Source: Syntrophaceae bacterium
GTDB taxonomy: Bacteria; Desulfobacterota; BSN033; UBA1163
Assembly (NCBI GenBank): GCA_013388635.1
Contig: JACAEX010000001.1
Coordinates: 1-64,000 of the forward strand
Length of the DNA: 64,000 nt
Reading direction: 5' to 3'
Positions 7,626-51,160 of this stretch are shown piece after piece. A program made the position numbers and the translations under genes. The notes beneath the pieces were generated by a model. It worked only from the letters and a program-made list of their open reading frames with translations. It did not search any database and was not told where the DNA came from. Each line of letters starts with the position of its first letter. The stretch's first letter is position 1.

Positions 7626-10277
7626 GTGACGGATAGAGAAGACGCCAAAAGAAGATGGGTCAGGTCAACCGGTTTCCTGGCTGGCCTGACCCTTTTTATT
7701 TCCTTGATCATCTTTTTTCATGGTCTCCTCCCCGGAAGATATATTTTCTTCGAAAGGGATCTTGGACCGTATTTCATTCCTCCGAGATTCTTCTGGGTGG
7801 AGAGCATAAAGAGCGGTCATTTTCCTTTATGGAACCCTTACCAATTTACCGGTCATCCCTTCTTTGCCAATCCCCAGTATGGTGTCCTTTACCCTCTGAA
7901 TAGCCTCTTTTTTCTCCTTCCATTCGATATAGCCTTCAATGCCATTATCGTCCTCCATTTCCTCCTCGGCGGACTATTTACATACTTCCTTCTTAGAGAA
8001 TTAAAGACAGATGTAACAGGCTCCCTTATCTCAGGCCTCATATTCATGCTTAGCGGTTACCTCCTCTCTGTCCACAGTCTTCTCACCATTCTTCTCTCCG
8101 TCATCTGGACACCTCTAATTATGATCTTTTTCAGAAGGGCGATTGCCAACCCCGGGTTTAAGAATGAAGTCCTGACTGCTATCCTTGTCACTTTCTCTTT
8201 CTTAGGCGGAGGGATAGAAATAGTCTATGGGAATTTCTTTGTGCTTTTAATTATGCTGATTTCTTTCCCGTCTTCCCATTCGTCCCCATTACATGGCGTC
8301 ATTCCCGGGGAAGCGGGAACCCAGACGACGTTCCTGCGAAGGCAGGAAACCATCGCTCAGGAATCTGGATTCCCCCGTAACAAGTACGGGGCAGGCTTGG
8401 TCTTGCCCGGAATGACAAAGTATATAAGACTTGTGTCACCATACATAAAAGGAATGAGGAGTTTGATCGTTGTATCCATCCTTTTCTTATTTTTATCTGC
8501 AATTCAACTCCTTCCTTTCCTTGAATTGTTTCATCATTCGATCAGAGGGAAAGGAGTTTCCTATCAGGAGGCAACGATCTGGAGCTTTGCGCCAAAAGAT
8601 GTCTTGCTCTTCTTCTTACCAGATGCCTACGGATACTGGTTGGATATGAAGAAGTACTGGGTAAACCAGTGCTGGTTCAAGACGCTCTATACAGGTGGAT
8701 TACCATTTATTTTAAGTCTGATCTTCTTCCTCACCCCTCATCCCCGCCCTCTCCCACAATGTGGAGAGGGGAATAAAAACAATTTTCCCTTCTCCCCCGT
8801 TGGAGAGAGTGAAGCAGAGGGGAGGGGCAAGAAATTCTTCCTTTTTCTAATGCTTTTCTCACTCTTTCTGTCCTTTGGCAAATACAACCCGCTTTATCCA
8901 TATTTATTTAAGTATTTGCCTTTTTTAAATGGGATCCGATATCCGGTAAAATTTCTCTCCATCTTTATAATTGTTCTCTCCATTACTGCAGGTTTAGGAT
9001 TCCAGAGATTGACAGAGTTTTCAAAAGAGGCCGAAAAGAAGAGATTTAAGAATCTCCTCATCATCTTTTCTCTTGTCTTTGGCCTTTTTCTTCTGTTTTT
9101 GGTCGTCAACCATAAAGGGGTGGAGGAGTTTCTTAAATTGAGAGGGATTGATTTGCCCGATTTTAATCGCCTCTCGGTAAACCTCCATCATGCCAAGAGG
9201 TTTCTTTTTTACCTGACGCTTTTCTTTCTCCTGCTCAGGGTTGGCCATGAGGTGAAGTGGAAGTGGTGGACAAAGGTCTTGTTGGTCTTCTTTCTCACGG
9301 CAGACCTCTTCGGGAATATGGGTTTTTATGGGAAGGTGAAAACTCAGGATTACTTCAAGAAGACCGAGACTGTGGAAATAATCTCTTCAGATAAGGACCG
9401 TTTCAGGATATTTTCAACGCCTAAAACCATCTCCTTCGATATTCCCATTTTGATTGCAAATGCGTCTTCTCTTAACATTTTTAAGGAAAAACATTTCCCC
9501 GCGCCAAATTTGCTTTACCGGCTGTATGATATCTGGGGGGTTGACGTGGTTCGATTAAAAAGGGTCGATGATCTTTATATAGCATTTGTCAATTCCCCAT
9601 CCATTTCCGCAACCAACCTTGTCGACCTCTATGGTATTAAATATGTGATCTCCGTCACTCTTCTTGAGAAAGAGCCCCGGTTTGAACTTATTTATTCAAG
9701 ACTTGAAGGCCTGGAAGGCAAGAAAGAAGATCTTCTTAAAGAGAATACGGTTAAGTTATACAGGGTTCGGTACCCATTCCCGAGAGCATGGCTTGTTAAG
9801 AACTTTAAAGTCATGGATGACGATGCAGTCCTTTCGAGAATGATTAGCAAGGAATTTCATCCCGGTGACGAGGTGCTCCTCGAAGAAGAGCCGATTCAAT
9901 TTCGGAATGCGAAATTAGGAGTTGAAAATCCGAAATCCGAAACCCGAAATCCGAAACCGTCAAAAAGGCTGGTGGGCAAAGTGGAATTTACTTCGGAGAC
10001 CAACAATGAACTGTGTCTCCGGGTAGAAGCAAAAGAAGATGCGATACTGGTTTTGAGCGACACCTATTATACAGGATGGAAAGTTTTTGTAAGTGGGGCA
10101 AGGGAGAAGATTTACAGGGCCAACTACAACTTCAGGGCGGTTCCTCTCAAAGCCGGTGAGCGCGAGGTCAGATTTGTTTACGATCCGTTAAGTTTCAAAA
10201 TTGGCGAGTTGGTGAGTATCTTTACTCTGGTTGGAATCGGTGTCTATTTTGCAAAAAGGAAACGGCACGTTACTTAG
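7626..10277 (+). CDS. YfhO-like multispanning membrane protein carrying repeat-derived insertions
   Basis: The protein (883 aa, GTG start) has a dozen or so hydrophobic segments in its first ~570 residues and a soluble C-terminal part, the architecture of the YfhO/GT-C-like family. Members are thought to act on lipid-linked or cell-envelope glycans. Family features seen are FERDLGPYF near residue 43, WNPYQFTGHPF near residue 63 and a final transmembrane segment. Three stretches (about 8295-8420, 8729-8832 and 9904-9965) are translations of dispersed intergenic repeats, and the frame stays open through all three. A glycosylation role for the pilus is only suggested by position. The N-terminal half is better supported than the exact function. 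Confidence 0.7.
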   Translation: MTDREDAKRRWVRSTGFLAGLTLFISLIIFFHGLLPGRYIFFERDLGPYFIPPRFFWVESIKSGHFPLWNPYQFTGHPFFANPQYGVLYPLNSLFFLLPFDIAFNAIIVLHFLLGGLFTYFLLRELKTDVTGSLISGLIFMLSGYLLSVHSLLTILLSVIWTPLIMIFFRRAIANPGFKNEVLTAILVTFSFLGGGIEIVYGNFFVLLIMLISFPSSHSSPLHGVIPGEAGTQTTFLRRQETIAQESGFPRNKYGAGLVLPGMTKYIRLVSPYIKGMRSLIVVSILFLFLSAIQLLPFLELFHHSIRGKGVSYQEATIWSFAPKDVLLFFLPDAYGYWLDMKKYWVNQCWFKTLYTGGLPFILSLIFFLTPHPRPLPQCGEGNKNNFPFSPVGESEAEGRGKKFFLFLMLFSLFLSFGKYNPLYPYLFKYLPFLNGIRYPVKFLSIFIIVLSITAGLGFQRLTEFSKEAEKKRFKNLLIIFSLVFGLFLLFLVVNHKGVEEFLKLRGIDLPDFNRLSVNLHHAKRFLFYLTLFFLLLRVGHEVKWKWWTKVLLVFFLTADLFGNMGFYGKVKTQDYFKKTETVEIISSDKDRFRIFSTPKTISFDIPILIANASSLNIFKEKHFPAPNLLYRLYDIWGVDVVRLKRVDDLYIAFVNSPSISATNLVDLYGIKYVISVTLLEKEPRFELIYSRLEGLEGKKEDLLKENTVKLYRVRYPFPRAWLVKNFKVMDDDAVLSRMISKEFHPGDEVLLEEEPIQFRNAKLGVENPKSETRNPKPSKRLVGKVEFTSETNNELCLRVEAKEDAILVLSDTYYTGWKVFVSGAREKIYRANYNFRAVPLKAGEREVRFVYDPLSFKIGELVSIFTLVGIGVYFAKRKRHVT
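8295..8420. repeat. GTCATTCCCG repeat inserted in the YfhO-like frame
   Basis: The segment carries GTCATTCCCGGGGAAGCGGG at one end and CCCGGAATGACA at the other, with GAATCTGGATTCC inside. It is the same repeat type found intergenically at 12275-12366, 21474-21545 and 24068-24150. Here it adds about 42 residues to the protein. Confidence 0.75.
8729..8832. repeat. CTCTCC/GGAGAG repeat inserted in the YfhO-like frame
   Basis: The stretch encodes a run beginning TPHPRPLPQCGEG, a typical translation of the pyrimidine-rich repeat also seen at 17006-17110 and 22512-22625. It lies between two predicted membrane segments, where an added loop could be tolerated. Confidence 0.7.
9904..9965. repeat. 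AATCCGAAA-type repeat fragment inserted in the YfhO-like frame
   Basis: AATCCGAAATCCGAAACCCG is a fragment of the ATTCGAA/ATCCGAAA family seen whole at 47851-48022 and 51003-51160. It is read in frame as GVENPKSETRNPKPS in the soluble C-terminal part of the protein. Confidence 0.7.
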
Positions 10278-14669: not shown

Positions 14670-14680
14670 CTCGGATTCCT

Positions 14681-14845
14681 TCAAATCCAAAACCCGAATA
14701 TCGTCATGCCCAAGGCAGATCCGCCTCTGGCGGAAAATCCGAAACAAATTCAAAATTCAAATTTTCCAAATTCTAACACTCTGTTTCAGTCATTTGCATT
14801 TTGGAAATTCGTGCTTGTTTCGAATTTCGTACTTTGAATTTAGGA
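14681..14845. repeat. ATTCGAA/ATCCGAAA miniature element
   Basis: A full-length minus-orientation copy of the family found at 47851-48022 and 51003-51160. The outer ends and the internal CAAATGAC motif are visible. It separates the secretin gene from mshM inside the pilus operon, leaving the gene order intact. Confidence 0.7.
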
Positions 14846-22625: not shown

Positions 22626-22712
22626 GGGTGCAACCTAATTCTCCTGGGTTCACTGTCCGCCGTTTATCGTTCATCGTCTATCGTCCATCGTTCATTCTTT
22701 CCATTTGGATTC

Positions 22713-26441: not shown

Positions 26442-26588
26442 CGTTAAGGGTAACGATGCCCGTATCGTCCAGAAATCGATAAGGAGATAAGGGCTTGAGG
26501 AGATAGGGAAAAAGATTTTTCTCCTCATCACCTCCGATGCTCCTAATGAGAACTTACGAAACGGCCCTCCTACCCTTAACCTTAACCA
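26442..26588. repeat. miniature inverted-repeat element, A type, copy 2
   Basis: It starts GTTAAGGGTAACGATGCCCG and ends CTACCCTTAACCTTAACC. Over ~145 bases it matches 10301-10456 almost base for base (CGTATCGTCC, AATCGATAAGGA, AAAAGATTTTTCTCCTCATCA, GAACTTACGAAACGG). It separates two signalling units. Confidence 0.8.
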
Positions 26589-26600
26589 TTAGATCTCGTG

Positions 26601-30577: not shown

Positions 30578-32869
30578 TTTAGTCTTCTGTTTGAGTGCCG
30601 CCAGGACCTTTTCCGGCGTGATCGGCAGATCCTTAATCCTCACGCCCAGGGCATCATAGATGGCGTTGGCAATCGCAGGTGCTGTGGGAACGAGTCCGGG
30701 TTCGCCAATGCCCTTCGCACCAAAAGGGCCAAATGGGTCGTTCGTCTCGATCACGATCGGATCAACATTGGGAACATCCTTGGCGGTCAGCATCTTATAG
30801 TCAAGGAAGTTCGGATTCATCACCTTTCCATTCTGCGAAATCAGCCTTTCGGTCAGGGCATAACCGATCCCCATGGCCACTCCTCCATAGACCTGACCCT
30901 CAAGGAGCATGGGGTTGATCGCCTTTCCGACATCGTGAGCCGCAACATATTTGAGAATCTTCACCTGACCTGTCTCCTTATCGACTTCCACCTCCACCCC
31001 ATGTGTTCCATAGCTATAGGTGACGGAGAGGTTTCCTTTGAACTCTCTGTCCAAGTTCTCATTGGCAGGGTCATAGAAATATTCGGCCATCACCATTCTT
31101 CCCCCTGTTGTGTAATGAGCAGCTCTCAAGACCTTTCCCAGCGGAGATTTCTTCTCAGGGTCTCTCTTTGAGAAGACAGTCCGGTCGCGAATATCTAAAT
31201 TCTCAGGACTTTCGCCTAAGGTTTGGCCTGCCACTTCGAGAAGGAGTTGTTTTACCTTCTTGGCAGCACCCAGGGCTGAATTGCCTGCCACGAAGGTCGT
31301 CCGGCTGGCATGCGCGCCCACGTCCCAGGGACAGACATCGGTATCGGTGTGGATGACGACCACGTCCTCGGTTCTAACTCCCAGTTCCTCCGCAACGATT
31401 TGAGCGATCACCGTGTCCGCTCCCTGTCCCATATCGGTTGCACCGGTGAAGACGTTGACCGTACCAAAATCGTCGATCTTAATAATGGTTCCGCAGCCAT
31501 CCGATTTATAGACCCGGGCTCCCCCTCCGACATGGATCAGGGAGGCCATTCCCACACCCCTTCCGTCCCTCCTTCCCCGATTCTGTCTCCAGTCAAGCTT
31601 CTGCGCGACCGCATCAATACACTCCCTCAGACCGCACGTGATGATCTTGAAATTCTGCGGGGTGATCTCGCCTGGTGTGTTGGCATTTCGCAATCTGAAG
31701 TCAAGGGGGTCGATCCCGGCCATCTCCGCAAGGATATCGATTTGAGAATCGATGGCAAAGGTAGCCTGAGGGTTTCCATAGCCCCTCATGGCCTGCGAGT
31801 AGGTATTGTTGGTATAGACGCACTTGGCCACGTAGCGGACGTTTGGGACTTTATAGAGAGAGGAGATGGGCATCATCATCACGGAAGGGGTGGTAGCCCC
31901 CCATGAGGTGTAGGCCCCATTGTCGAGAATCATTCGGACATCCCGGAAGGTCAATCGGCCATCGCGGGTACATCCCTGAGCGATATCGATGATCGCAGGT
32001 TGTCTGGGCGAGGTGGCGAAAAACTCCTCTTCACGGCTGAAGACGATCTTAACCGGTTTATGGGTCTTATGGGCGAGAAGGATGGCAATGTATTCGAACG
32101 CATAAGTATCAAGCTTACTTCCAAATCCGCCTCCGATCATCGTTTTGATCACCCGGACCTTCTTTCCCTGTAACCCCATTGCCGAAAGGGCCTCTGTGAA
32201 GTCTCTCTGGGCGAGGGAGGGGATCTGGGTGATGCTGTAGATCGTCAGATTGTTCTTCAGATCGAACTGGGCGAGGCATCCACTCGTGCCCATGCAGCAG
32301 TGGGTGACCCAGGTCACCCGAAAACGATCTTCGGCAACATAGGCGGACTGTCTTCTTGCCTCATCCACGTCTCCGGCGATAAGCCTCCAGGGAAGGTTGA
32401 GGACATTGGTCGGTCTTTTCTCTTTGCCCCCTACATGTTCGTCATGAACAAGGGGCGCCCCTTCTTTCATCGCCTCTTCCGGATCGAAGACAGAAGGAAG
32501 GATTTCATAGTCAACCCTGATCAGATCGAGCGCCTCTTCCGCGATGTCAGGATCTGTAGCGGCCACTGCAGCCACCTCGTCACGGCAAGACCTGACCTTT
32601 CCTGCTTTGAGCGGGACGTTATCTTTATAGAAACCAAATTTGATAGAGGGGATATTGTAGCCGGTCAGGATGGCCTTAACACCCAAGAGCCTTTCTGCTC
32701 GGGACGTATCGATATTCAATATCTTCGCATGGGCATGAGGGCTGTAGAGAATCTTTCCAAAAAGCATTCCCGGGACTTTGAGGTCATGGATATAGACGGC
32801 CCTGCCAGTGACTTTCTCCTCTGCATCCGTCTTGGGGATCCGCTTTCCGATATTGATAAATTCTTCCAT
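30569..32869 (-). CDS. molybdenum hydroxylase, molybdopterin-binding large subunit (xanthine dehydrogenase family)
   Basis: The catalytic subunit (766 aa) hydroxylates a carbon beside a ring nitrogen or carbonyl using water, with electrons leaving through FeS and FAD subunits. Family motifs are IGGGFGSK (~250), SQAMRGYGNPQA (~365), TDMGQGADTVIAQ, and GAKGIGEPGLVPTAPA near the C-terminus. The last contains the catalytic glutamate. AAGGAG precedes the ATG. Usual order here would be FAD, FeS, Mo subunit, and that order holds except that a four-helix-bundle element lies between FeS and Mo genes. The substrate cannot be named. Given yqeB/yqeC in the genome it may be a selenium-dependent enzyme. 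Confidence 0.88.
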   Translation of the reverse strand: MEEFINIGKRIPKTDAEEKVTGRAVYIHDLKVPGMLFGKILYSPHAHAKILNIDTSRAERLLGVKAILTGYNIPSIKFGFYKDNVPLKAGKVRSCRDEVAAVAATDPDIAEEALDLIRVDYEILPSVFDPEEAMKEGAPLVHDEHVGGKEKRPTNVLNLPWRLIAGDVDEARRQSAYVAEDRFRVTWVTHCCMGTSGCLAQFDLKNNLTIYSITQIPSLAQRDFTEALSAMGLQGKKVRVIKTMIGGGFGSKLDTYAFEYIAILLAHKTHKPVKIVFSREEEFFATSPRQPAIIDIAQGCTRDGRLTFRDVRMILDNGAYTSWGATTPSVMMMPISSLYKVPNVRYVAKCVYTNNTYSQAMRGYGNPQATFAIDSQIDILAEMAGIDPLDFRLRNANTPGEITPQNFKIITCGLRECIDAVAQKLDWRQNRGRRDGRGVGMASLIHVGGGARVYKSDGCGTIIKIDDFGTVNVFTGATDMGQGADTVIAQIVAEELGVRTEDVVVIHTDTDVCPWDVGAHASRTTFVAGNSALGAAKKVKQLLLEVAGQTLGESPENLDIRDRTVFSKRDPEKKSPLGKVLRAAHYTTGGRMVMAEYFYDPANENLDREFKGNLSVTYSYGTHGVEVEVDKETGQVKILKYVAAHDVGKAINPMLLEGQVYGGVAMGIGYALTERLISQNGKVMNPNFLDYKMLTAKDVPNVDPIVIETNDPFGPFGAKGIGEPGLVPTAPAIANAIYDALGVRIKDLPITPEKVLAALKQKTKPQ

Positions 32870-32880
32870 GAGAGCTCCTT

Positions 32881-33350
32881 TTCAAATCCGAAATTCGAAA
32901 TCCGAAACAAATTCCAAACTCGAATTATCGAATTTCCAAAACATTATTCACTCTTTCGCAAAATGGATCCAAAAATATTCATAAGTTCCGAAGCTTCATT
33001 TTCTAACACCTTTCGTTCATTTTCCTGAACCTGTTCATCACAAGTGTCGATTAATCTTAACCAGTATCGGCTTTCTTTAGCTTCTTTACGACAGATCTTT
33101 ATCCTCATAATAAAATCTTTTTTGCTTAACGCTTCATTGGCTTCAATGTAATTTGACCCGATTGAACCAGACGCCCTGATAAGCTGCTTGCCATCTTCAA
33201 TATTGGCTACCGTTTTAGATAATGTTTTTATAAAAGCTCTAACCTTTTTTGCGAAGTTAAGTGTGCGTTCCTCCAAGTCATATGTTCTTAGATTTTGAAT
33301 TTTGGTCATTTGAAATTGTTTCGTATTTCGGATTTCGTGCTTCGAATTTA
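32881..33350 (-). mobile_element. four-helix-bundle gene bracketed by ATCCGAAA/ATTCGAA inverted ends
   Basis: A 470-base unit starts AAATCCGAAATTCGAAATCC and ends GGATTTCGTGCTTCGAATTT, with the four-helix-bundle gene filling its interior. Its outer ~50 bases on each side are the same as the two halves of the gene-less repeats at 47851-48022 and 51003-51160. Even the CAAATGACCAAAA start-codon context is conserved in those short copies. The unit abuts the stop codon of the FeS-subunit gene and separates it from the Mo-subunit gene. Mobility is inferred from the copy distribution; no transposase is encoded. Confidence 0.65.
32944..33309 (-). CDS. four helix bundle protein (S23/IVS-type)
   Basis: The 121-residue product matches the short four-helix-bundle family first seen in intervening sequences of 23S rRNA genes: NLRTYDLEERTLNFAKKVR at the start, LIRASGSIGSNYIEAN in the middle and KEAKESRYWLRLI near the end. 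The members form pentameric bundles of unknown function. A longer frame exists to 33411, but its first 34 codons belong to repeat and FeS-gene DNA; the ATG at 33309 matches the family start. It lies between two hydroxylase subunit genes with which it has no known functional link. Confidence 0.88.
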   Translation of the reverse strand: MTKIQNLRTYDLEERTLNFAKKVRAFIKTLSKTVANIEDGKQLIRASGSIGSNYIEANEALSKKDFIMRIKICRKEAKESRYWLRLIDTCDEQVQENERKVLENEASELMNIFGSILRKSE

Positions 33351-33815
33351 TTACTGGTTGCTGGCTGCTTTGATCGCCTGAACAATTTGAAGGTAACCCG
33401 TGCAGCGACACAGGTTTCCAGCAATTGCGTTTCGAATCTCCTCCTCTGTCGGTTTTGGATTCTCATCGAGAAGGGCCTTTGCAGAAAGGACCATCCCGGG
33501 TGTGCAGAAGCCACACTGGATCGCTCCGTGTTCGATGAAGGCCTTCTGAATGGGATGAAGATTGCCCTGGGCGTCTATCAGTCCTTCGATGGTGGTCACG
33601 TTCTTTCCATCGACCTCCATCGCAGGGAGGATACAGGAGTTGACCGGTCTCCCGTCCAGAAGAACGGTGCAGGCTCCGCATTCTCCCATGCCGCATCCCT
33701 CCTTCGTACCGGTGAGCTCCAGTTCATCCCTTAAGAGGTGCAGGAGGGTCAGATGAGGTTCAATCTCTGCCCGAACGGGTTCGCCATTCAAAACAAAACT
33801 GATGCTCTTCTTCAT
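33351..33815 (-). CDS. molybdenum hydroxylase, [2Fe-2S] small subunit
   Basis: Both iron-sulfur sites are present in this 154-residue subunit: the plant-ferredoxin type CGMGECGACTVLLDG...C around residues 40-60, and the helical type CGFCTPG...CRCTGY around residues 100-140. It passes electrons from the molybdenum centre to the FAD subunit. GGGAG precedes the ATG at 33815; the frame continues upstream to 33896 through repeat DNA. It lies downstream of the FAD gene in the same transcript, separated by the inverted-repeat element at 33842-33972. Confidence 0.93.
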   Translation of the reverse strand: MKKSISFVLNGEPVRAEIEPHLTLLHLLRDELELTGTKEGCGMGECGACTVLLDGRPVNSCILPAMEVDGKNVTTIEGLIDAQGNLHPIQKAFIEHGAIQCGFCTPGMVLSAKALLDENPKPTEEEIRNAIAGNLCRCTGYLQIVQAIKAASNQ

Positions 33816-33841
33816 CGTCGAATCTCCCTTAGCCTTGCATC

Positions 33842-33972
33842 CAGATCCAATAATCAAATCCCAAACTCCAAATAATTCCGGATAATCAGTTACCAAATAA
33901 CCAAATTAACACTTAGGGCTTTCAGAAATTTGGTCATTGGAGTTTCGGTCATTATTTGATTATTGATGCTTG
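33842..33972. repeat. AATAATCAAAT inverted-repeat element
   Basis: CCAATAATCAAATCCCAAAC at one end and GGTCATTATTTGATTATTGA at the other form inverted ends of about 28 bp around a ~75-base core. It is distinct from the ATTCGAA family. It lies between the FeS and FAD subunit genes. Confidence 0.7.
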
Positions 33973-33996
33973 GAAACTGGTTATTACTATATCTGA

Positions 33997-34968
33997 TTAC
34001 CACGCCCTCGTTGGGAAAACGGTCTCTTCCGGTCGGATCACTCTCTCAATAGATCGCATCGCCATCCGCCTTACCAGAACCCTGATCATCTCTCTTCGAT
34101 ACCAGGCTTCGGCCCGGATGGTGTCCCTGGGCTGGGCCTCGTTGGAAGCGGTCTCTGCCACCTCCTGCAAAAGTTCATCGCTGATCCTCTTTCCTCGCAA
34201 AAGCCCTTCTGCTTTTATGGCCCTCATGGGTGTGGGAGCAGCCACGCCCAGGCCGATCCTCACTTCTTTACAGACAAGCCCCTCCTGTTCCATCGCATGG
34301 AGGACCGTCGAAATCGGGGAGGTGGCGCAGAGTATGTCAGGACAGGAGATTCTGTTTCTATCCAGGGAGAGAAGGACAGATACGCCGAGGATAGGGAGAT
34401 CCAAGGCGAGGCGTCTCTGGTGTTTCCAATAGGCAGATCCCGTGAAGGGCAGGGGTTTCGGGATGATCAGTTCTGTGACCAGCTCTCCCTCCTCTAAAAC
34501 GGTTTCACCCGGACCTTTGAAGAACGATTCGATCGAAACGGTCCTCTCCCCTTTTAGGCCTTTTATTTTGACCTGGGCGCCAAGGACCAGGAGAGGGGTA
34601 GCCGTGTCCGCCGAAGGTGCGGCGTTACAGATATTGCCGGCGATGGTTGCCACATTTCGGATTTGGATAGAACCTAATACATCAACGGCGTCGGCCAAGG
34701 CAGAGAACTCTTTTCGTATTACTTGGGATTTCTCAATCTGCCGGTGAGTGACCATCGGACCGATCCTCAAAGCTCCGTCGTACTGGATTTGATCCAATCC
34801 GGTTATTCCGGAAAGGGAGATGAGGACATCCGGCGAGATCCTCTTCTGTTTGATCATCACCATGACGTCCGTCCCACCAGCAACCAGTTTCGCCCTTTTG
34901 CCGTATTGATTGAGAAGCGACAGGGCCTCATCGATGGTTCTGGGCTTGAGATAATCAAACTTCTTCAT
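33997..34968 (-). CDS. molybdenum hydroxylase, FAD-binding medium subunit
   Basis: A 323-residue CoxM/XdhB-type subunit that binds FAD and delivers electrons to the final acceptor. The FAD-contacting motifs are AKLVAGGTDVM (~32-42) and IRNVATIAGNICNAAPSADTATPLL (~102-126, split by the usual spacing). The C-terminal domain (ATSPISTVLHAMEQEG, LGVAAPTPMRA) is normal. No extra cysteine-rich insert for a [4Fe-4S] cluster, as in 4-hydroxybenzoyl-CoA reductase, is seen. AAGGAG precedes the ATG at 34968. It follows dctM by about 50 bases and starts the FAD-FeS-Mo series. Confidence 0.92.
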   Translation of the reverse strand: MKKFDYLKPRTIDEALSLLNQYGKRAKLVAGGTDVMVMIKQKRISPDVLISLSGITGLDQIQYDGALRIGPMVTHRQIEKSQVIRKEFSALADAVDVLGSIQIRNVATIAGNICNAAPSADTATPLLVLGAQVKIKGLKGERTVSIESFFKGPGETVLEEGELVTELIIPKPLPFTGSAYWKHQRRLALDLPILGVSVLLSLDRNRISCPDILCATSPISTVLHAMEQEGLVCKEVRIGLGVAAPTPMRAIKAEGLLRGKRISDELLQEVAETASNEAQPRDTIRAEAWYRREMIRVLVRRMAMRSIERVIRPEETVFPTRAW

Positions 34969-35019
34969 AGAGCTCTCCTTCCCCCTGCCGGCCATTCCCT
35001 CACAGGGAGAGGCTGGAGA

Positions 35020-36315
35020 TCATCTGACCAGGCTTGGAAGAAAGAGCGCCACCTGGGGAAAGATGATCATCGCTGCCATCGTGATACAATAAGCAGGAAT
35101 AAACCAGAGGACACCCTTGAATACGGTGGCAAGAGGGATATCCTCTGCCATTCCAGAGACGACGTAAGCACATATTCCCACCGGAGGGGTGACAGCTCCC
35201 ATGGTGGTCACCACCGTGAGAATGCAGCCGAACCAGATCGGATCGTAACCCAGTTGCATCGCCATCGGGAAGAAGATAGGAATGGAGATCAGAAGAAAAC
35301 CCAAGGCATCCATCACCATCCCTGCTATGGCATAGATGACCAGGATGCAAACCATAATCATGTAGGGAGGTATCTGAAGGCCGGAGACGAAATCGACGGC
35401 CATAAAAGGGAGTCGGCTGATCGTCAGAAACCGGCCGAAGATGACAGCTCCCCAGACGATGACGATCACCATACAGGTCACCCTTAGGGCGTCGATGATC
35501 GCTGAGACAAACCCCTTCCATGAAAGCCTTCTTCGGATCGCTGAAGCGATGAGAAGGGCGAAGAAGGCGCCGGCAGCCCCTGCTTCGGTGGGTGTATAGG
35601 TTCCCGTATAGAGCCCGCCCATGACGAGGCCAAAGAGGATGACCATCTCCGTCATCCCGGGAGCGGCTTTGATCTTATCGATCAAATCGACCTTGGGTCC
35701 TCCAGGGCCCCATTCGGGATGCCTGACACAGATCACGTAGATGGTCAGAACGAAGAGCAGAGCCATCAAAATTCCGGGTAATGTGGACCCCCAGAAGAGT
35801 TTCCCAATGGACTGTCCGGTCTGGATGCCATAGACGATCAAGACCACGCTCGGCGGGATGACGACCCCAAGGGTTGAGCCACAGGCGATGGAGCCTGAAG
35901 AAAGGGCCTTGTGATAGTTATATTTCTTCATCTCAGGCAGGGCTACCGTGGTCATCGTCGCAGCCGTGGCGTTGTTCGAGCCACAGATCGCAGAAAAACC
36001 TGCACAGGCCATGATCGTGGCCATGGCGATTCCACCCCTTGTCCGGCCGAACCATTTGTAAGCCGCCTCATAGAGATTCTTGTTAACCCCGGAATAGAAA
36101 CAGACCGTGCCCATCAGGATGAAGAGGGGGATGACCGTGAGGCTGTAAGAGGAGAAGTTTGACCACGTCTCAGTCCCGATCATGGAGAGGGCCGAATCCA
36201 GGCCTGTGACGTACCAGAGCCCGAGGAACCCTACTATCGCCATGGAGAAACCGACAGGCATCTGGAGGAAGATCATCACTGCGAGGAGGATAAGGATTCC
36301 GATGATGCCGACCAA
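35020..36315 (-). CDS. dctM: TRAP transporter large permease
   Basis: A DctM/SiaM-type membrane protein of 431 residues with about 12 hydrophobic segments, using the sodium gradient to import an organic acid delivered by the binding protein. Family segments: PVGFSMAIVGFLGLW near the start, ACAGFSAICGSNNATAATM (~115-135), GVVIPPSVVLIVYG, and TPTEAGAAGAFFALL. The start is a TTG two bases after the dctQ stop with GGAG seven bases upstream; a later ATG is possible. It is encoded directly upstream of the hydroxylase genes, so the imported compound may be the hydroxylase substrate. Confidence 0.9.
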   Translation of the reverse strand: MVGIIGILILLAVMIFLQMPVGFSMAIVGFLGLWYVTGLDSALSMIGTETWSNFSSYSLTVIPLFILMGTVCFYSGVNKNLYEAAYKWFGRTRGGIAMATIMACAGFSAICGSNNATAATMTTVALPEMKKYNYHKALSSGSIACGSTLGVVIPPSVVLIVYGIQTGQSIGKLFWGSTLPGILMALLFVLTIYVICVRHPEWGPGGPKVDLIDKIKAAPGMTEMVILFGLVMGGLYTGTYTPTEAGAAGAFFALLIASAIRRRLSWKGFVSAIIDALRVTCMVIVIVWGAVIFGRFLTISRLPFMAVDFVSGLQIPPYMIMVCILVIYAIAGMVMDALGFLLISIPIFFPMAMQLGYDPIWFGCILTVVTTMGAVTPPVGICAYVVSGMAEDIPLATVFKGVLWFIPAYCITMAAMIIFPQVALFLPSLVR

Positions 36316-36316
36316 C

Positions 36317-36808
36317 TTACTTCTCTCCTTTTATGAGGACAAAGGATTTCAAAAAATCGATAAACAGGATCAGAGCAAGGAAAAAGCAGCAGAAGGCTAC
36401 CACATAGACAAAGGGGTGATAGATGATCCTTAAGGTCTCTGACGTTTCGCCCCTCTTCCAGATGGCAGTGGCATAAACCGCACTCCGCCAGGCCACCAGG
36501 ATGAAGAAGATCGTGCATACAAAGGAGTTGACCGCATTGATGATCCGTTGGGTCCGTTTTGAATATCGGGTTGATAGGATGTCGACGAATATATGAGCAC
36601 GAGTGATCTGAGCATATCCGAGGGGTAAGGCGACGACCAGCGCGCCGAAGAATCCGACCAGCTCATAAGACCCCTTGAGAGGGGCTCCAAAAGGCCGCAT
36701 CAGCATATTGGCACAGGCAATGGCTGTCAGGATTAAAAGGGCGACTCCACCGATCCAGCCGAACCATTGACTCAGCTTTTTGCTAATCTCATCGAGCACG
36801 GATATCAT
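36317..36808 (-). CDS. dctQ: TRAP transporter small permease
   Basis: A 163-residue DctQ-type protein with four hydrophobic helices; it scaffolds the large permease. Typical segments are ANMLMRPFGAPLKGSYELVGFFGALVVA (middle part) and AQITRAHIFVDIL. The stop codon is directly before the dctM start. It is separated from the binding-protein gene by a strong hairpin. Confidence 0.88.
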   Translation of the reverse strand: MISVLDEISKKLSQWFGWIGGVALLILTAIACANMLMRPFGAPLKGSYELVGFFGALVVALPLGYAQITRAHIFVDILSTRYSKRTQRIINAVNSFVCTIFFILVAWRSAVYATAIWKRGETSETLRIIYHPFVYVVAFCCFFLALILFIDFLKSFVLIKGEK

Positions 36809-36851
36809 CAGTCAGCTCGTCGATCTGATGGGAACTGGATCACCCAGAAAG

Positions 36852-36877
36852 ACAGGGGAGGCTTTAACCTCCCCTGT
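36852..36877 (-). terminator. intercistronic hairpin between dctP and dctQ
   Basis: A perfect 10-bp stem (ACAGGGGAGG with CCTCCCCTGT) and a six-base loop lie 22 bases after the dctP stop. Partial termination or 3' protection here would make the binding protein more abundant than the permeases, a common arrangement. Confidence 0.65.
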
Positions 36878-36898
36878 TTGTGAGCGATGCCGAAAAAC

Positions 36899-37939
36899 TC
36901 AGTCAGGATATTGCTTGCTATATTTTTCCTTAAGCTTTGTGACCTCATCAAGGATTTTTTTGGCAGGTAACCCCTTGGCCTCAACATCTTTGATATATTT
37001 TTCTCTCATCGGCTTCAGCAAGGCGTACCATCTCGAGATCTCTTTCGGCGAGAGCTGGTAGACCTGGACCGTTGGGTTCTTGTATGTCTGGATAGACCAT
37101 TTGATGGCCTCTTTCACATGGTTGTCCACATACTGTCCTGTCCAGATCGCCTGTTCTTTGCTGAGATCGTCGATCACCTTTTTCACATCCGAAGGGAGAG
37201 ATTCCCATTTCCCTTTATTCATCACCACGGCAAAGGAGACGACGAAAAGGTTGACGTTGCCTGTCACATGGCGGCAGTGTTCCGCATATTTGAAATCTTT
37301 CATCACTTCGAGGGAGGAAACATTACCCTTGATCACTCCCTTTTGAAGCGCTTCGGGGACATCGGATTGTGGCATGGCCACAGGCGCTGCTCCGAGAAGT
37401 TCAAGGATCTTCGCGCCGGTCCCGGAGGCCCTTAACTCATACCCTTTGAGATCTTCCAGAGAGAGAATCGGTTTCATGGACATGATGTTGGCAGGCGGGC
37501 AGGTGAACATCGTAATGATCTTAAATCTTTCAAGTTCCTTGGGTTTATATTTCTCGACAAGATCCCAGAGGGAGGCGCTCGCCACCGTGGCGCTCGGCCA
37601 GGCCAGAGGTAAGTCTACGGCCTCCACCACAGGAAACATTCCCGGGAAATAGGAAGTACAGGTATTGCCAATATCAGCCGTTCCGGCAGCGACTCCATCA
37701 AACATATTCTTCGCATGAAGAAGGGTGCTGCCCGGATAGGTATCGACCTTCACCTTGCCCTGGGTCCTCTTCTCCACCTCCTGTTTCCACCTCTCCATCT
37801 GAACGCAGGGGAATGTCGGAGCAGGAGGAAAATTTGCGTAGCTCAGTTTAATCTGAGCCTGTGCAGCCGGAGGAAGGAAACTCAACAAGAGGATCGCCGC
37901 CAACCCGACAAAAATAACTAATAAAACCTTTCGTCCCAT
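36899..37939 (-). CDS. dctP: TRAP transporter substrate-binding protein
   Basis: The signal peptide (hydrophobic core, PPAAQA cleavage near residue 28) is followed by a DctP fold. Seen are IKLSYANFPPAPTFPC, the TADIGNTCTSYFPGMFP segment, and LRASGTGAKILELLGAAPVAMPQSDVPEAL (contiguous in the protein; the conserved Arg that grips the substrate carboxylate is in LRASG). It should capture a carboxylate in the periplasm and pass it to DctQM. AAGGAGG precedes the ATG and a TTGACA-type promoter lies ~85 bases upstream, so it may also be transcribed separately from the genes before it. Confidence 0.92.
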   Translation of the reverse strand: MGRKVLLVIFVGLAAILLLSFLPPAAQAQIKLSYANFPPAPTFPCVQMERWKQEVEKRTQGKVKVDTYPGSTLLHAKNMFDGVAAGTADIGNTCTSYFPGMFPVVEAVDLPLAWPSATVASASLWDLVEKYKPKELERFKIITMFTCPPANIMSMKPILSLEDLKGYELRASGTGAKILELLGAAPVAMPQSDVPEALQKGVIKGNVSSLEVMKDFKYAEHCRHVTGNVNLFVVSFAVVMNKGKWESLPSDVKKVIDDLSKEQAIWTGQYVDNHVKEAIKWSIQTYKNPTVQVYQLSPKEISRWYALLKPMREKYIKDVEAKGLPAKKILDEVTKLKEKYSKQYPD

Positions 37940-38019
37940 TTTTAACCCTCCTTTCTAACTTGATCGTCCGGTTTGAGGGCCCAAAGAGAGGCTCCTCCCC
38001 GAATCTCTTATTTCAGAAT

Positions 38020-38047
38020 ACTGTATAGAGAGGCAATGGTTTGTCAA
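38020..38047 (-). promoter_or_regulatory. putative sigma-70 promoter upstream of dctP
   Basis: On the minus strand TTGACA (38042-38047) and TACAGT (38020-38025) are spaced by 16 bases. The following leader of ~75 bases ends in an AAGGAGG site before dctP. This internal promoter would give the transport and hydroxylase genes their own expression level. Confidence 0.5.
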
Positions 38048-38074
38048 GCCTTTTCTTCCCATCTCCATCACCCC

Positions 38075-39367
38075 TCAGTCTCCCCGGTTATCAAAGACCC
38101 GTTTACTCTTTCGCTCGGATCTCGGGAGGGTTCCGTAGTTCACGATCTCCACCCTGGCGCTGACCAGGATCTGCTTCTTGATCTCCTCCTCGATCCTACT
38201 GGCCAGGGCCTGATCTCGTGCTGGATCAGCTCCCTCTGACCTTTCGACCCTTACGGTCATATAGTCCCTGCCATCCTCTTTCCGGTCGAGAAGGATCTGG
38301 TATTCACTCCCCACGCCTTCTGTGTTTGAAAGGACGTGGTCGATCTGGCCGGGATAAATATTGACCGCCCTGAAGATAAACATGTCATCCGACCGGCCTA
38401 ATAATCGATCGTGCATGGGCAGGATCGATCCACAGGAGCAGCGCTTGGGTATGAGCTTGGTAAGGTCTCTTGTCCGGTAACGAATGAGAGGGGAGGCCTC
38501 TTTCCGAAGGGTCGTGACCACCATCTCGCCGATCTCGCCGGGCGGGACGGGTTCGAGCGTCTCCGGATCGAGAAGCTCGAGGATATAGTAGTCGGCCCAA
38601 TAATGGATGCCTTCGTGGTAGACACAATCAAGCCCCGTTCCAGGGCCATAAAGTTCTGTAAGACCGGGGATATCGAAGACATGCTCCACACCCAAGAGGT
38701 CCTTCATCTTAGCTCTCATCGAATCGCTGGACCGCTCTGAACCCATGATCACCTTTTTCAGCGCGATCCGGTTTCTCAGACCTCTTTTCTGAACCTCTTC
38801 GCCCATCAAGAGGGCCATGGAGGCTGTGGCGCAAAGAGCGGTCGGCTGGAAGTCCTCTAAGAACTGGCACTGCATATCGAGATTTCCAGGACCCACAGGA
38901 ATGGCCAGGGCGCCGAATCGTTCGCATCCCAATTGAAACCCTACCCCAGCTGTCCAGACTCCATACCCCACGGCAATCTGGACCCGATCCGTTTTCGTCA
39001 GGCCAGCCATCTCATAACACCGGGCAAACATATTGGCCCAATCGTCAATATCCTTCTGGGTATAGCACAGGACTTTTCGCTTTCCTGTCGTTCCTGAAGA
39101 GGCGTGAATGCGGACGATCCTTTCAAAGGGAGCAGATCTCAGAGGGAATGGGTATCCATCCCGAAGATCGTCCGCGGTCGTAAAGGGAAGCTTCGCAATA
39201 TCTTTAAGAGATTTGATGTGTCGGGGATGCACCCCTGCCTCATCCAATCGCCTTCGATAGAATTCCGAGTTCTTGTAGGCATGCTGGACCGTCCACTGCA
39301 GTCCTTCCAATTGAATCCTTTTCAATTCTCTCTCCGTCCTTATCTTGGGCATGAAACTTCTTCCCAT
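38075..39367 (-). CDS. phenylacetate-CoA ligase-like (AMP-forming) acyl-CoA ligase
   Basis: The 430-residue protein belongs to the PaaK family. The P-loop is HASSGTTGKR (~88-97), the adenylate motif is around GLTELYGPG, YRTRDLTKL is the conserved Asp/Arg segment, and the C-terminal domain carries GRSDDMFIFRAVNIYP. It activates a carboxylic acid, often aromatic, to its CoA thioester. Many PaaK-like ligases work on other acids, so phenylacetate itself is not assumed. The ATG is two bases after the hyuB stop with GGAGG upstream, so it is coupled to HyuAB, suggesting that it activates their product. Confidence 0.85.
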   Translation of the reverse strand: MGRSFMPKIRTERELKRIQLEGLQWTVQHAYKNSEFYRRRLDEAGVHPRHIKSLKDIAKLPFTTADDLRDGYPFPLRSAPFERIVRIHASSGTTGKRKVLCYTQKDIDDWANMFARCYEMAGLTKTDRVQIAVGYGVWTAGVGFQLGCERFGALAIPVGPGNLDMQCQFLEDFQPTALCATASMALLMGEEVQKRGLRNRIALKKVIMGSERSSDSMRAKMKDLLGVEHVFDIPGLTELYGPGTGLDCVYHEGIHYWADYYILELLDPETLEPVPPGEIGEMVVTTLRKEASPLIRYRTRDLTKLIPKRCSCGSILPMHDRLLGRSDDMFIFRAVNIYPGQIDHVLSNTEGVGSEYQILLDRKEDGRDYMTVRVERSEGADPARDQALASRIEEEIKKQILVSARVEIVNYGTLPRSERKSKRVFDNRGD

Positions 39368-39369
39368 TC

Positions 39370-41091
39370 CTATCCTCCGATCCTCTCACGAAGTTTTCTC
39401 GTCGCTTCCATGTCGACCTTGGATGTCTTAGGATCGATCACCACTCCGTAGTCTTCTTTAGCCCTCTCGAGGCTGACATATCCTTCGATCACATCTCTCT
39501 CTACCATTTCAGGGTCGCGCTCCAAAGGATTTCCATAACCCCCTCCACCCGCAGCATCGATGGTCACCACATCCCCTGGTTTGAGCTGGGTGAGTCCGTA
39601 AGGATTTCCAGGCTCTTCGTTAACCAGAAACCGGGCCCGGGCTCCGGGCCTACCGCCAAAGAGTCCTTCTGGAGGATGGAGATGCCTTCCTGCCTGTATT
39701 CCTAAGTTAATGGGCGGGATGGGGGCGTACTGATCGTCAGGGATTCTGAAAACCTCTCTCTGGCCAAGACCTCCTTTCATCTTTCCGGGACCTCCTGAAT
39801 CGATCAAAAGCTCCCTCTTCTCTACGATGAGGGGGGTATCGCTTTCAAATATCTCCACAGGCGTATTGGCGCCATTGGCAGGAAAGATGTAGACATAATT
39901 GCCATCGCTCAAGGAACTGGCTCCCATCCCGCCTCCCCGAATGATCACGGAATGCCACGGCCTCCCGTCATTTCTTTTTCCGTAGAAGACATTCATCTGC
40001 GCAGGCGTGCCGCCGCTCGATGCGATCACCCTGTCCGGTACAACCACGGAGAGGGCCCGGTAGATAATTTCGGTTAAAAAGTGGCCGATCACGAGCCGGG
40101 CAGCCACGGCTGCAGGGAACCGGCAGTTTACGACGCTACCCTCCGGAGCCTTCAGTTTGATCGGTCTTGCACAGCCATCATTGTTGGGGATGTCCGGGTC
40201 GAACATGCTTTTGATGGCCATAAAGACATAGGCATAGGTGAAGTTATAGACGACATTGCCACCCCAGTTCACCTGGGGAGAGGATCCGTCGAGGTCCACA
40301 ACGATGTCGCTTCCCTTGACCTCCACCGCAGCCTTGATCACCACATCCTCTTTGCCTTTCATCTGCTCCACGACCCCCTGAGCCCTGTAAATGCCGTCCG
40401 GGATCTTCTCAATCTGTTCTCTCATGCTCTTCTCTGTCCGATCCGTGATCTGGTCTGCCAGATCGTCCAGGCCATCGAGTTCATTCTCGTTGAGCATCTG
40501 ACATATCTTCTCGCCGCACACATGATTGGCTGCGATCTGAGAGCGGATATCTCCAATCACCTCATCAGGGGTCCGTACGTTCCAGCGGATCATGTCGATC
40601 ACAGACTGATTGAGCACTCCAGCGTCGTAAAGCTTGACAAGGGGGATGAAAAGGCCTTCCTCGAAGACGTCGTGGTTGTCTGACGAGACCCGGCCGCCGA
40701 TATCCGAATGGTGAAAGACGCAGGCTGTAAAAGCGGTCAACTGACCCTTGTAGAAGATGGGGCTGATCAGACAGACGTCGTTCAGATGGCCTGCCAGTGC
40801 CCAGGGGTCATTGGTGATGAATATGTCGCCGGGTTTATAAGTTTCCGGCGGAAGCTTGTTGACGAGATTCTTAATTCCCAAGGCCATGGCCCCGGACTGG
40901 CCAGGGGTGGCAAAGGTCCCCTGGGCCAGTTCCCGACCCTTTCGGTCGGTGAACATGCAGGTATAGTCATGCGCATCCCTGAGCAGGCTCGAAAATGCTG
41001 TGCGAGAAACTGCGCTGTCTGCTTCATCCACAATGGAGATCAATCTCCGCCACAGGATCTCCAGGGTAATGGGATCGAAAGTCTTTCGCAT
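39370..41091 (-). CDS. hyuB: hydantoinase B/oxoprolinase family subunit
   Basis: The 573-residue protein shows the HyuB pattern: DPITLEILWRRLISIVDEAD at the start, CMFTDRKGRELAQGTFATPGQ, FITNDPWALAGHLNDVCLI, and the glycine-rich GGPGKMKGGLGQRE. HyuB partners HyuA in ATP-dependent opening of cyclic amides (5-oxoproline, N-methylhydantoin) or in ATP-dependent carboxylation of ketones (acetone and acetophenone carboxylases). A third small zinc-type subunit, as in acetone carboxylase, is absent. It begins 12 bases after the hyuA stop. Confidence 0.88.
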   Translation of the reverse strand: MRKTFDPITLEILWRRLISIVDEADSAVSRTAFSSLLRDAHDYTCMFTDRKGRELAQGTFATPGQSGAMALGIKNLVNKLPPETYKPGDIFITNDPWALAGHLNDVCLISPIFYKGQLTAFTACVFHHSDIGGRVSSDNHDVFEEGLFIPLVKLYDAGVLNQSVIDMIRWNVRTPDEVIGDIRSQIAANHVCGEKICQMLNENELDGLDDLADQITDRTEKSMREQIEKIPDGIYRAQGVVEQMKGKEDVVIKAAVEVKGSDIVVDLDGSSPQVNWGGNVVYNFTYAYVFMAIKSMFDPDIPNNDGCARPIKLKAPEGSVVNCRFPAAVAARLVIGHFLTEIIYRALSVVVPDRVIASSGGTPAQMNVFYGKRNDGRPWHSVIIRGGGMGASSLSDGNYVYIFPANGANTPVEIFESDTPLIVEKRELLIDSGGPGKMKGGLGQREVFRIPDDQYAPIPPINLGIQAGRHLHPPEGLFGGRPGARARFLVNEEPGNPYGLTQLKPGDVVTIDAAGGGGYGNPLERDPEMVERDVIEGYVSLERAKEDYGVVIDPKTSKVDMEATRKLRERIGG

Positions 41092-41103
41092 TACTGATAC
41101 CTC

Positions 41104-43257: not shown

Positions 43258-43318
43258 CGATCCTTCCATACGCAGCTAACATCGAACTCAGAACTCGCTT
43301 GGAAAATAAAGTTTCTGG

Positions 43319-43469
43319 GCTAAGGTAAGGGTAAGGATGCCGGTTTTGTCCTTGGGTTAGGTCATTGGCCTGCCTGCGCGTAGTCCCGCCCTGCGAAGGC
43401 AGATCTTAAATCTCTCACTTTACCCTTCCACTTTGCCCAAACTGGCTTCCTAACCCTAGCCTTAACCTA
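43319..43469. repeat. miniature inverted-repeat element, B type, copy 2
   Basis: The left end GCTAAGGTAAGGGTAAGGAT and the right end CTTCCTAACCCTAGCCTTAA are inverted relatives. The AACTGGCTTC and ACTTTGCCCAAACTGG segments match the element at 4785-4905 in reverse. It lies between hyuA and the dehydrogenase gene. Confidence 0.7.
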
Positions 43470-43515
43470 AATACAATTTTCATGGTTCGCGGGTGACGAA
43501 CCCGTCATGTAGGAT

Positions 43516-45537: not shown

Positions 45538-45549
45538 AGGCACCTCCTC

Positions 45550-45652
45550 CTTGAAATCCGAAATTCGAATGTCGAAATCCGAAACAAAGTGAAGCTCCTC
45601 GCTCACAGGGCGGGGCTTCCCGGCTTTGTGCTTCGGATCTCGAGTTTAACGT
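45550..45652. repeat. ATTCGAA/ATCCGAAA miniature element, shortened
   Basis: GAAATCCGAAATTCGAATGT at one end and GTGCTTCGGATCTCGAGTTT at the other flank a CGGGGCTTCC core. It fills the gap between the mutase stop and the dehydrogenase start. Confidence 0.65.
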
Positions 45653-45653
45653 C

Positions 45654-47282: not shown

Positions 47283-47284
47283 AC

Positions 47285-47432
47285 ATTACCCCTCAAATCC
47301 GAAATCCGAACATCAAAATCCCAAATTGTTTAAGCACGAAACACTAAATCCTAAACAAAATATTTTCGAAGTCATGCGGTTTAACATCTCTGTTTCGGAT
47401 TTCGTGCTTCGAATTTCGAATTTCCCCGATCA
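47285..47432. repeat. ATTCGAA/ATCCGAAA miniature element
   Basis: CTCAAATCCGAAATCCGAAC at one end and GGATTTCGTGCTTCGAATTT at the other, with an AT-rich core. It lies between the two mutase subunit genes and reaches the end of the B12-subunit gene. Confidence 0.65.
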
Positions 47433-47831
47433 GGGTCGGGGCTTGATGTGTTCTTGGATCCAGCGGATCAGCTCACTGAAAGGAGTTCCTCCAGGGAAAA
47501 TCCCATGAATTCCCATTCTCTGAAGGATCGGGATATCCCTTTTGGGAATGACCCCACCGACGATGACTGAGATATCGTCGATCTTTTTCTCCTCCATCTT
47601 CTTCATCAATTTTTCACAGATCGGCAGGTGCGCACCAGACATGATGGAGAGCCCGATCACATCCACGCCCTCTTGGATAGCGGTATTGATGATCTGATCG
47701 ATGGTCTGATGAAGGCCGGTGTAGATCACCTCCATTCCGGCATCCCGGAGGGCCTGGGCCACGACCTTGGCCCCCCGATCGTGGCCATCGAGGCCAGGCT
47801 TTGCGATCAGGACGCGGACTTTCTTCTCCAC
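47430..47831 (-). CDS. B12-dependent acyl-CoA mutase, cobalamin-binding subunit
   Basis: A stand-alone B12-binding domain of 133 residues. The DxHxxG signature is LDGHDRG (~15-21, the His that ligates cobalt), followed by the phosphate-cradling GLSIMSGAH and the GG loop VIVGGVIP. Such small subunits pair with separate catalytic subunits in isobutyryl- and 2-hydroxyisobutyryl-CoA mutases and some methylmalonyl-CoA mutases. The GTG at 47831 follows AAAGGAGG; the frame opens at a TTG six codons upstream. It is the first catabolic gene after the regulator. Confidence 0.9.
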   Translation of the reverse strand: MEKKVRVLIAKPGLDGHDRGAKVVAQALRDAGMEVIYTGLHQTIDQIINTAIQEGVDVIGLSIMSGAHLPICEKLMKKMEEKKIDDISVIVGGVIPKRDIPILQRMGIHGIFPGGTPFSELIRWIQEHIKPRP

Positions 47832-47850
47832 CCCTCCTCCTTTTAGCAAT

Positions 47851-48022
47851 AAAAATTTCGAATTTCGAAATCCGAATACCGGGCGAAGCGTCCGTTAAGG
47901 ACCGATCCCAAACAGATTCGAATTTTCAAAATTCAAACTTCTCGTGAGGAACGCATTATTTGTTTGGGACATTTTGAAATTTGGTCATTTGAGATTGTTT
48001 CGAATTTCGTACTTCGAATTTA
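47851..48022. repeat. ATTCGAA/ATCCGAAA miniature element, full length
   Basis: A ~170-base copy reading, on the minus strand, AAATTCGAAGTACGAAATTC, then CAAATGACCAAA, then a tail ending CGGATTTCGAAATTCG. The GGTCCTTAACGGACGCTTCG part is shared with 51003-51160. It separates the regulator from the mutase genes. Confidence 0.75.
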
Positions 48023-48028
48023 AAGTTC

Positions 48029-48715
48029 TTACGGAACCATCCTTCCCCGATTGATCTCCTTCAGGATGATCTCCTTCCCTCTTTCCAGGTGCTTTCGGAC
48101 AAGCCTTTCGACCAACCTCGGATCTCTCTTCTTCATGGCTTCTACCATGCGTCGGTGGCCTTCCATGGAGGCATGGATGCCATAGCGGGTCTTAAGCAGG
48201 GCGGAACGATAACGATAAAAATAGTCTCGGAAATTGTTGATCATCTCGGTAAGCTTCTTGCTCTGGCAGGACTGGTAGAGGAGGTCGTGAAATTCGGTAT
48301 GGAGCTCTACGACCTTCTCCTCCTCTCCATTCCGGAGGGCCTTTTCTGTCTCCTGAATCTTCTTCTCCAAAGCAGAGAGCTTATCCGGCGTCATGTGAAG
48401 AGTGGCCAGGTAAGCGGCGTAACTTTCAAGGGCGATCCGGATTCCGAAGATCTCCTCCACATCTTCCACAGTAAATTCTCTGACTACAAAGCCTCCCTGG
48501 GGACGGTGCATGGCCAGACCGTCGCGTTCAAGTTTGTAGAACGCCTCTCTCACGGGAGTACGGCTGATGCCGGTTTGATCAGCCAGTTGTTCTTCGATGA
48601 GGCGTTGGCCTCCTTTCAGTTTTCCGTGGAGGATAGACCTTTTTAGCGCATCATAGACCTCCTCACGCAAGGGTTTTCTCTTAGCCACCCGCATCCCTCC
48701 CAGTATCTTTTTCAC
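48029..48715 (-). CDS. GntR family (FadR/FCD-type) transcriptional regulator
   Basis: An N-terminal winged helix (residues ~10-75: LREEVYDALKRSILHGKLKGG, QTGISRTPVREAFYKLE, GGFVVREFTVED) is followed by an all-helical FCD ligand domain with the metal-binding pattern D/H...H...H (ELHTEFHDLLY, SMEGHRRMVEA). It probably represses the downstream catabolic genes until an acid or acyl-CoA ligand binds. GGAGG five bases before the GTG at 48715 sets the start, giving 228 residues. Palindromic half-sites lie just upstream. It is the first gene of the long minus-strand unit. Confidence 0.88.
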   Translation of the reverse strand: MKKILGGMRVAKRKPLREEVYDALKRSILHGKLKGGQRLIEEQLADQTGISRTPVREAFYKLERDGLAMHRPQGGFVVREFTVEDVEEIFGIRIALESYAAYLATLHMTPDKLSALEKKIQETEKALRNGEEEKVVELHTEFHDLLYQSCQSKKLTEMINNFRDYFYRYRSALLKTRYGIHASMEGHRRMVEAMKKRDPRLVERLVRKHLERGKEIILKEINRGRMVP

Positions 48716-49724: not shown

Positions 49725-49725
49725 T

Positions 49726-51002: not shown

Positions 51003-51160
51003 TTAGAAAATTCGAAATTCGAAGCACGAAATCCAAAGCAGATTCAAATGACCAAAATACATCGTTCGAAGCTCTTAAGTTTTGGAAATTCGAATTTGGA
51101 GTTTGTTTCGAATTGGTCCTTAACGGACGCTTCGCCGGATATTCGTGGTTCGAGTTTCTA
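51003..51160. repeat. ATTCGAA/ATCCGAAA miniature element, full length
   Basis: Plus-orientation copy: AAATTCGAAATTCGAAGCAC, CAAATGACCAAAAT, TTTTGGAAATTCGAATTTGG and a tail TTAACGGACGCTTCGCCGG. The first and last thirds match the flanks of the four-helix-bundle gene at 32881-33350; the gene itself is missing here. It sits directly downstream of the tRNA. Confidence 0.75.

Follow-up and report, generated by a model that had tools for sequence, protein, structure and literature searches.

The IVP/S23 gene in the window (the whole stretch of 64,000 nucleotides that was analysed) is framed by inverted arrays of short degenerate repeats, and this observation, made in an earlier note on the same DNA, is real, above chance and one case of a wider phenomenon. 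IVP genes of many phyla typically possess their own inverted arms of 7- or 8-nt repeats, and the arm type tracks the protein lineage. The open-access literature yielded no account in which IVP genes are paired with lineage-matched heptamer arms. We consider it likely that the window unit belongs to a large group of small elements that are mobile or have at least been inserted repeatedly and by horizontal transfer. Their common design is an IVP gene flanked by two inverted arms made of degenerate 7- or 8-nt repeats. This reading builds on an architecture confined to IVP genes, on arms that follow the protein lineage, on polymorphic sites and copies at unrelated loci, as well as on discordance with flanking genes, purifying selection and gene-less relatives with the same ends.

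The IVP/S23 family is best known from, and named after, intervening sequences (IVS) of 23S rRNA genes, and structures of its proteins have been available since 2006. The four-helix-bundle gene in the window (32944..33309, minus strand, 121 aa) is one of eight IVP genes in this genome. Its product matches PF05635 (E=4.9e-14) and TIGR02436 (E=5.8e-20), and its structure model (pLDDT 92) has 2RLD as the top PDB match and also matches 2GSC, followed by Avd (4DWL) and a ribonucleoprotein of diversity-generating retroelements (DGR; 8UB7) with TM ~0.65-0.69. The solved IVP structures 2GSC and 2RLD comprise five chains each, and PMC4990558 describes the Xanthomonas S23p as forming a homopentameric toroid. 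The host site lies between subunit genes of a molybdenum-hydroxylase-like enzyme (xdh site); an Rfam scan of 32000-52000 recovered no family apart from one tRNA, and a 23S rRNA location of the window unit was not found. In two loci of other genomes, L196 (G109:C7) and L195, the IVP domain is part of far longer ORFs (548 and 310 codons, respectively), which are perhaps fusions.

Read in the sense of the gene, the element extends from about 33349 to 32884 (AAATTCGAAGCACGAAATCC...CAAATGACC, gene, TTTTGG...GTTTCGGATTTCG...CGGATTT). The 5' arm (33301..33349, minus strand) is composed of CGAANNN heptamers (AAATTCGAAGCACGAAATCCGAAATACGAAACAATTTCAAATGACC) that adjoin the ORF start, and the start codon lies inside its CAAATGACC segment, which agrees with the context that had been noticed at the gene start. 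The 3' arm (32884..32943, minus strand) reads TTTTGGAAATTCG...GTTTCGGATTTCGAATTTCGGATTT. Gene-less copies with the same arms are located at 47851..48022 (minus strand), where the palindrome GGTCCTTAACGGACGCTTCGCCC is nested in the 3' arm, and directly behind a tRNA gene at 51003..51160 (plus strand), which has the same nested palindrome and is near-symmetric, so that its orientation call is uncertain. Only a few bases separate this copy from the tRNA gene (50922-51160). Two more copies, absent from the earlier note, lie at 14672..14842 (minus strand) and between two mutase subunit genes at 47284..47424 (minus strand), while fragmentary CGAANNN arrays without a strand call occur at 9894..9957 and 45543..45590.

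The summed alignment scores of both ends against these repeats are 101 (47851-48022), 90 (51003-51160), 89 (14672-14842) and 80 (47284-47424), compared with 47 for the best of 1411 random pieces of the window. Chance likeness of AT-rich DNA was rejected as the source of the similarity on account of this random maximum, and the claim that the gene is framed by ends matching the gene-less repeats is thus borne out. As a minor correction, the segment said to be kept where the gene would end reads TTTTGAAAATTCG in 47851-48022 instead of TTTTGGAAATTCG. The arms of five gene-bearing and 12 gene-less copies align column by column, and an asymmetric mark distinguishes each side, GCAC on the 5' and GATATTC on the 3' arm; the order of the ends relative to the gene is therefore not random. 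The RNA of the window element folds with 38 pairs between its two ends, the terminal inverted repeats forming the single stem for which a folding test had been proposed, and the whole element reaches -106.4 kcal/mol vs -92.2 +/- 4.3 kcal/mol for shuffles. We do not claim a conserved functional RNA in the gene-less copies, as stem covariation is absent; their RNAalifold consensus has only 11 pairs because the inner arms are out of register, and R1, the model built for the gene-less unit, served mostly as a model of sequence.

Small unrelated palindromes (GGTCCTTAACGGACGCTTCGCCC, CCTGCCGGTAGGCAGG and a hairpin containing GGGATGCTT) are nested at one arm point beside GTTTCG in the gene-less copies at 47851-48022 and 51003-51160 and in L012, L019, L023, L024, L027 and L031-L034. 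This point behaves as if it were an insertion target for small palindromes.

The arms of IVP genes are inverted heptamer arrays, in which about four letters of each heptamer are fixed and three vary, and their median length is 37 nt or about five heptamers. Within this genome the arm sequence differs for each gene (e.g., GTTCANN, GTCTNNN, CTCTNNN, TTGAATN); as exceptions among the eight genes, L003 has an ambiguous upstream side and the repeats of L005 are ~8 nt long. Over 100 IVP loci of the family, the median own-arm complementarity is 33, whereas mismatched arms reach 16 and a set of 44 ordinary genes 15, with about a fifth of the loci at background level, and the flank autocorrelation at lags 7, 14 and 21 is 0.379, 0.356 and 0.335 vs ~0.28. 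Public genomes were searched for IVP loci with a single-protein query. The pattern recurs in 27 loci across the phylum (own-arm 35 vs 16; lag 7 0.423), in 10 loci on cyanobacterial plasmids (lag 7 0.449), in 23 further loci, mostly of Bacteroidota (lag 7 0.400), and in 69 loci of ~17 phyla (own-arm 30 vs 16; lag 7 or 8, as some lineages use 8 nt).

Arm type follows the protein. At unrelated loci, protein pairs with a normalised score of at least 0.8 have the arm type in common in 15/15 cases, and below a similarity of 0.4 it is shared in 0-1%. The two arms of one element also match each other better than they match a relative's arms (34.9 vs 30.8 at a protein similarity of 0.7-0.8; 31.6 vs 25.7 at 0.6-0.7). 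The arms of gene-less copies have no better own match (own 35.5, other 37.6; 1903 of 2000 permutations reach it). We infer from these comparisons that gene-bearing lineages keep their arms matched and that gene-less copies drift. The IVP protein probably recognises its own arms, although arm type and protein lineage could likewise be linked because they travel together, without recognition.

Gene-less units are numerous in this genome and in some of the relatives; the genomes compared are draft metagenome assemblies, and their start-codon and strand calls are heuristic. The 137-nt consensus occurs at at least 150 sites, and its model detects at least 150 copies each in this genome (G000), G016 and G006, 148 in G012, 7 in G002 and 1 in G001. 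Full CGAANNN elements with the gene are present at several loci of G016 and in G012, and a single contig of G008 contains two copies of a 539-bp IVP element that are 98.1% identical, sharply bounded and set in unrelated flanking sequence. Copies with the gene at unrelated loci, as well as matching empty or gene-less sites in relatives, had been named as support for an insertion element, and both were found. A target-site duplication was not seen in the one clean pair (L185/L186); the empty sites are too diverged to fix boundaries.

The occupation of individual sites varies considerably. At the xdh site, G000 and G016 have the gene with CGAANNN arms, G005, G008 and G012 the gene with CAATAAC-type arms, G001 and G011 a decayed gene, G007 and G010 other gene-less hairpins, and G017 and G022 only 11 bp. 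The orthologous site of G015 (L077, G015:C188) contains a RAYT-like transposase gene accompanied by GGTCTCCTGACC repeats of its own, and we therefore regard this gap as a recurrent insertion site for unrelated elements. The mcm site at 47283-47429 is occupied by a gene-less CGAANNN unit in G000, G012, G013 and G016, by an IVP gene with GAGG/CTTGAGG arms in four genomes (G005-G008), by a gene-less unit with the same arms in three (G009-G011), and by other types in G014 and G015. At 47850-48028 the gene-less CGAANNN unit is found in G000, G006, G007 and G010; the site is almost empty in G008, G009, G012 and G014 and holds nothing in G005. In G013 and G016 the place of the unit of G000 is occupied by a repeat that shares the core of another dispersed repeat (GGTAACGATGCCCGTATCGTC), which lies in the window at 10307-10455 and 26449-26590.

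At the mcm/epimerase site G000 has a gene-less unit (L024) and G016 a gene-bearing one, and in L004 (G000:C23) a gene-less GTTCANN copy with ~36 nt resembling the gene start stands in tandem with a full copy. Given that one arm type occurs with and without its gene at the mcm site, and given the tandem, deletion products, as proposed in the earlier note, are a good reading of the gene-less copies, although the direction may have been loss or gain. The miniature family of more than 150 gene-less copies may derive from one deletion followed by amplification. The tandem in L004 is flanked by CRISPR-like or REP-like repeats (GACGACCTGATGAATAAGGGATTG).

The same-site IVP genes of G008 and G005 have a dS of 0.46, compared with 3.1-4.2 for the flanking genes. 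IVP genes that are far closer between genera than their flanks indicate horizontal movement. At the xdh site, identity between the two IVP lineages is only 53-57%, compared with 71-83% for the flanks, and these lineages probably arrived separately.

One may suppose that Y1 transposases (IS200/IS605, RAYT) move the units in trans by cutting the hairpin ends, with the IVP gene as a passenger or accessory. The copy number of gene-less units correlates with the Y1_Tnp count in 17 genomes (rho 0.69, p 0.002), and the RAYT-like gene in G015 demonstrates the presence of such an element, with its own repeats, at the xdh site. However, the correlation rests on lower-bound counts and related genomes, genomes rich in one kind of mobile DNA tend to be rich in the others, and G013, with 103 copies and one Y1 gene, leans against it. 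Y1_Tnp loci in the same genomes also lack heptamer arms (lag 7 at the background value of 0.284), and their neighbours have no orientation bias (same to opposite strand 9:12 and 13:9). We consider this explanation unlikely. The units resemble REP/RAYT systems as dispersed palindromes tied to one gene family, but IVP is not a nuclease family and no Y1 gene lies between the repeats. They resemble MITEs in that the gene-less copies are short, multicopy and intergenic, with inverted ends and no ORF, but their ends are short degenerate repeats, no parent transposase was found, and no target-site duplication was seen in the one clean pair. An autonomous transposase sharing the ends was not found in the comparison with the Y1_Tnp family; only the IVP gene was found to share them.

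IVP genes lie nearly always in sense within operons: of the neighbours with a strand call, 91 of 93 upstream (91:2) and 88 of 93 downstream (88:5) have the same strand as the IVP gene. Pairs of IVP genes have a dN/dS of 0.04-0.12, which also holds for copies that reside at a single site, and their products are basic, with a median pI of 9.1. The sense bias and purifying selection imply that IVP expression matters, either to the element or to the host. The term "cargo", formerly applied to the gene, undersells it: the gene shows conservation, lies in sense and carries arms that fit its own lineage. The same data may suit an operon element serving the host, in which the hairpin is a site of mRNA processing or stability, the basic protein with its Avd-like fold a regulator, and the gene-less copies, which are placed between co-directional genes in a ratio of 16:2, its regulon. 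Long residence at fixed sites under purifying selection could indeed reflect a host function. Against this stand the frequent presence/absence and change of element type at one site, the unrepaired arm pairing of gene-less copies, their occurrence in both orientations (32:11, less certain for near-symmetric units) and an IVP divergence that disagrees with the flanks, and we regard such a regulon as rather improbable.

The fold shared with Avd and the sense orientation raise the alternative of retro-mobility, in which the IVP protein would, like Avd, serve a reverse transcriptase (RT) that copies operon RNA. We find this hard to favour, as the only RT found in this genome is a truncated one at a contig end and the gene-less copies are less strictly in sense, so the sense bias of IVP genes can reflect selection for expression. 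Joint mobility with an RT received no support, and neither a DGR reverse transcriptase nor template/variable repeats were found, which distinguishes the unit from diversity-generating retroelements. Hardly credible is that no element exists and that ordinary slippage repeats collect in intergenic gaps beside IVP genes: many bacterial genomes do contain an unexplained excess of heptameric repeats (PMC4692102), but the arms here are inverted, lineage-matched and confined to IVP genes as opposed to ordinary genes or transposases, and the protein/arm link, the asymmetric marks, the consensus recurring at so many sites and the 98% identical copy at a second locus contradict it.

We therefore return to the small inserted element as the preferred reading. 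In such an element, the basic and probably pentameric IVP protein would bind its own arm heptamers, in the form of RNA or single-stranded DNA and perhaps with one heptamer per subunit, which is a guess, and would deliver the unit to an enzyme of the host or of another element. Placed between co-directional genes, the unit would share the transcription and translation of the host operon. Gene-less copies whose arms are intact would use the same machinery in trans and subsequently decay. The mobilising enzyme had been described as missing from the window, and none was found; no nuclease, integrase or reverse transcriptase was found to travel with the IVP element. Four genomes (G007, G013, G014 and G015) keep 85-114 gene-less CGAANNN copies and have no CGAANNN-type gene among the IVP genes examined, which speaks against the preferred reading.

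The 23S rRNA IVS share with the window unit an IVP-family ORF, terminal inverted repeats in one stem and heptamers by the ORF start, the last feature being reported for Coxiella only and not a formal IVS criterion. The IVS of Coxiella burnetii, which was called a selfish element, has a 28-bp terminal-repeat stem and three tandem GACAGAT plus one GACAGAA just before the S23p start codon (PMC4990558), and these heptamers vary among strains. It is of the same design as the window unit, set in an rRNA gene. The window unit differs in its location in a protein-gene operon, in far more varied arms and in large gene-less families. The 23S intervening sequences are best read as one habitat of a mobile element class, as the same kind of unit that would have landed in an rRNA gene.

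Intergenic heptamers are also known from cyanobacteria and Xanthomonas (GGGAATC, GGGGATT; in Xanthomonas with 70-75 inverted pairs), and the work on Xanthomonas and Nostoc reports that a general link to mobile elements was not found (PMC4692102). Beggiatoaceae have arrays of TAACTGA (PMC4679880). Neither source is known to tie these repeats to IVP genes. Xanthomonas encodes the solved IVP XCC0516. Our own examination of heptamer arrays as IVP-element arms covered cyanobacterial plasmids. As a tentative generalisation, which we hold somewhat short of probable, there may be a bacteria-wide class of elements built around a pentameric four-helix-bundle protein that reads arrays of its own heptamers, with joint change of protein and repeat from lineage to lineage. 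Such elements would spread in sense via operons and rRNA genes with no transposase or integrase that can be recognised; many unexplained intergenic heptamer repeats would be their gene-less remains. The role of S23/IVP proteins and the origin of intergenic heptamers would thereby be joined in one testable hypothesis. If IVP proteins recognise their own heptamers, they would represent a new sequence-reading nucleic-acid binder with a code readable from genomes.

IVP genes have been reported in cas loci. On Pseudanabaena and Anabaena plasmids (L379, L384) the IVP gene, enclosed by repeat arms of its own, is situated between cas6 and cas4. This framing offers a reason for the presence of IVP genes in cas operons, as apparent hitchhikers, and the reported CRISPR links of the family may be hitchhiking.

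Two further repeats were observed in the window. A CGTTCAT/CGTCCAT heptamer array at 22641-22712, beside which no IVP gene was found in the window, is possibly a remnant of another element type. The segments 3874-3912 and 62075-62113 form an inverted pair (AAAAACGCCAAGCGCTTGGCG) that is 85% complementary over a distance of 58 kb.
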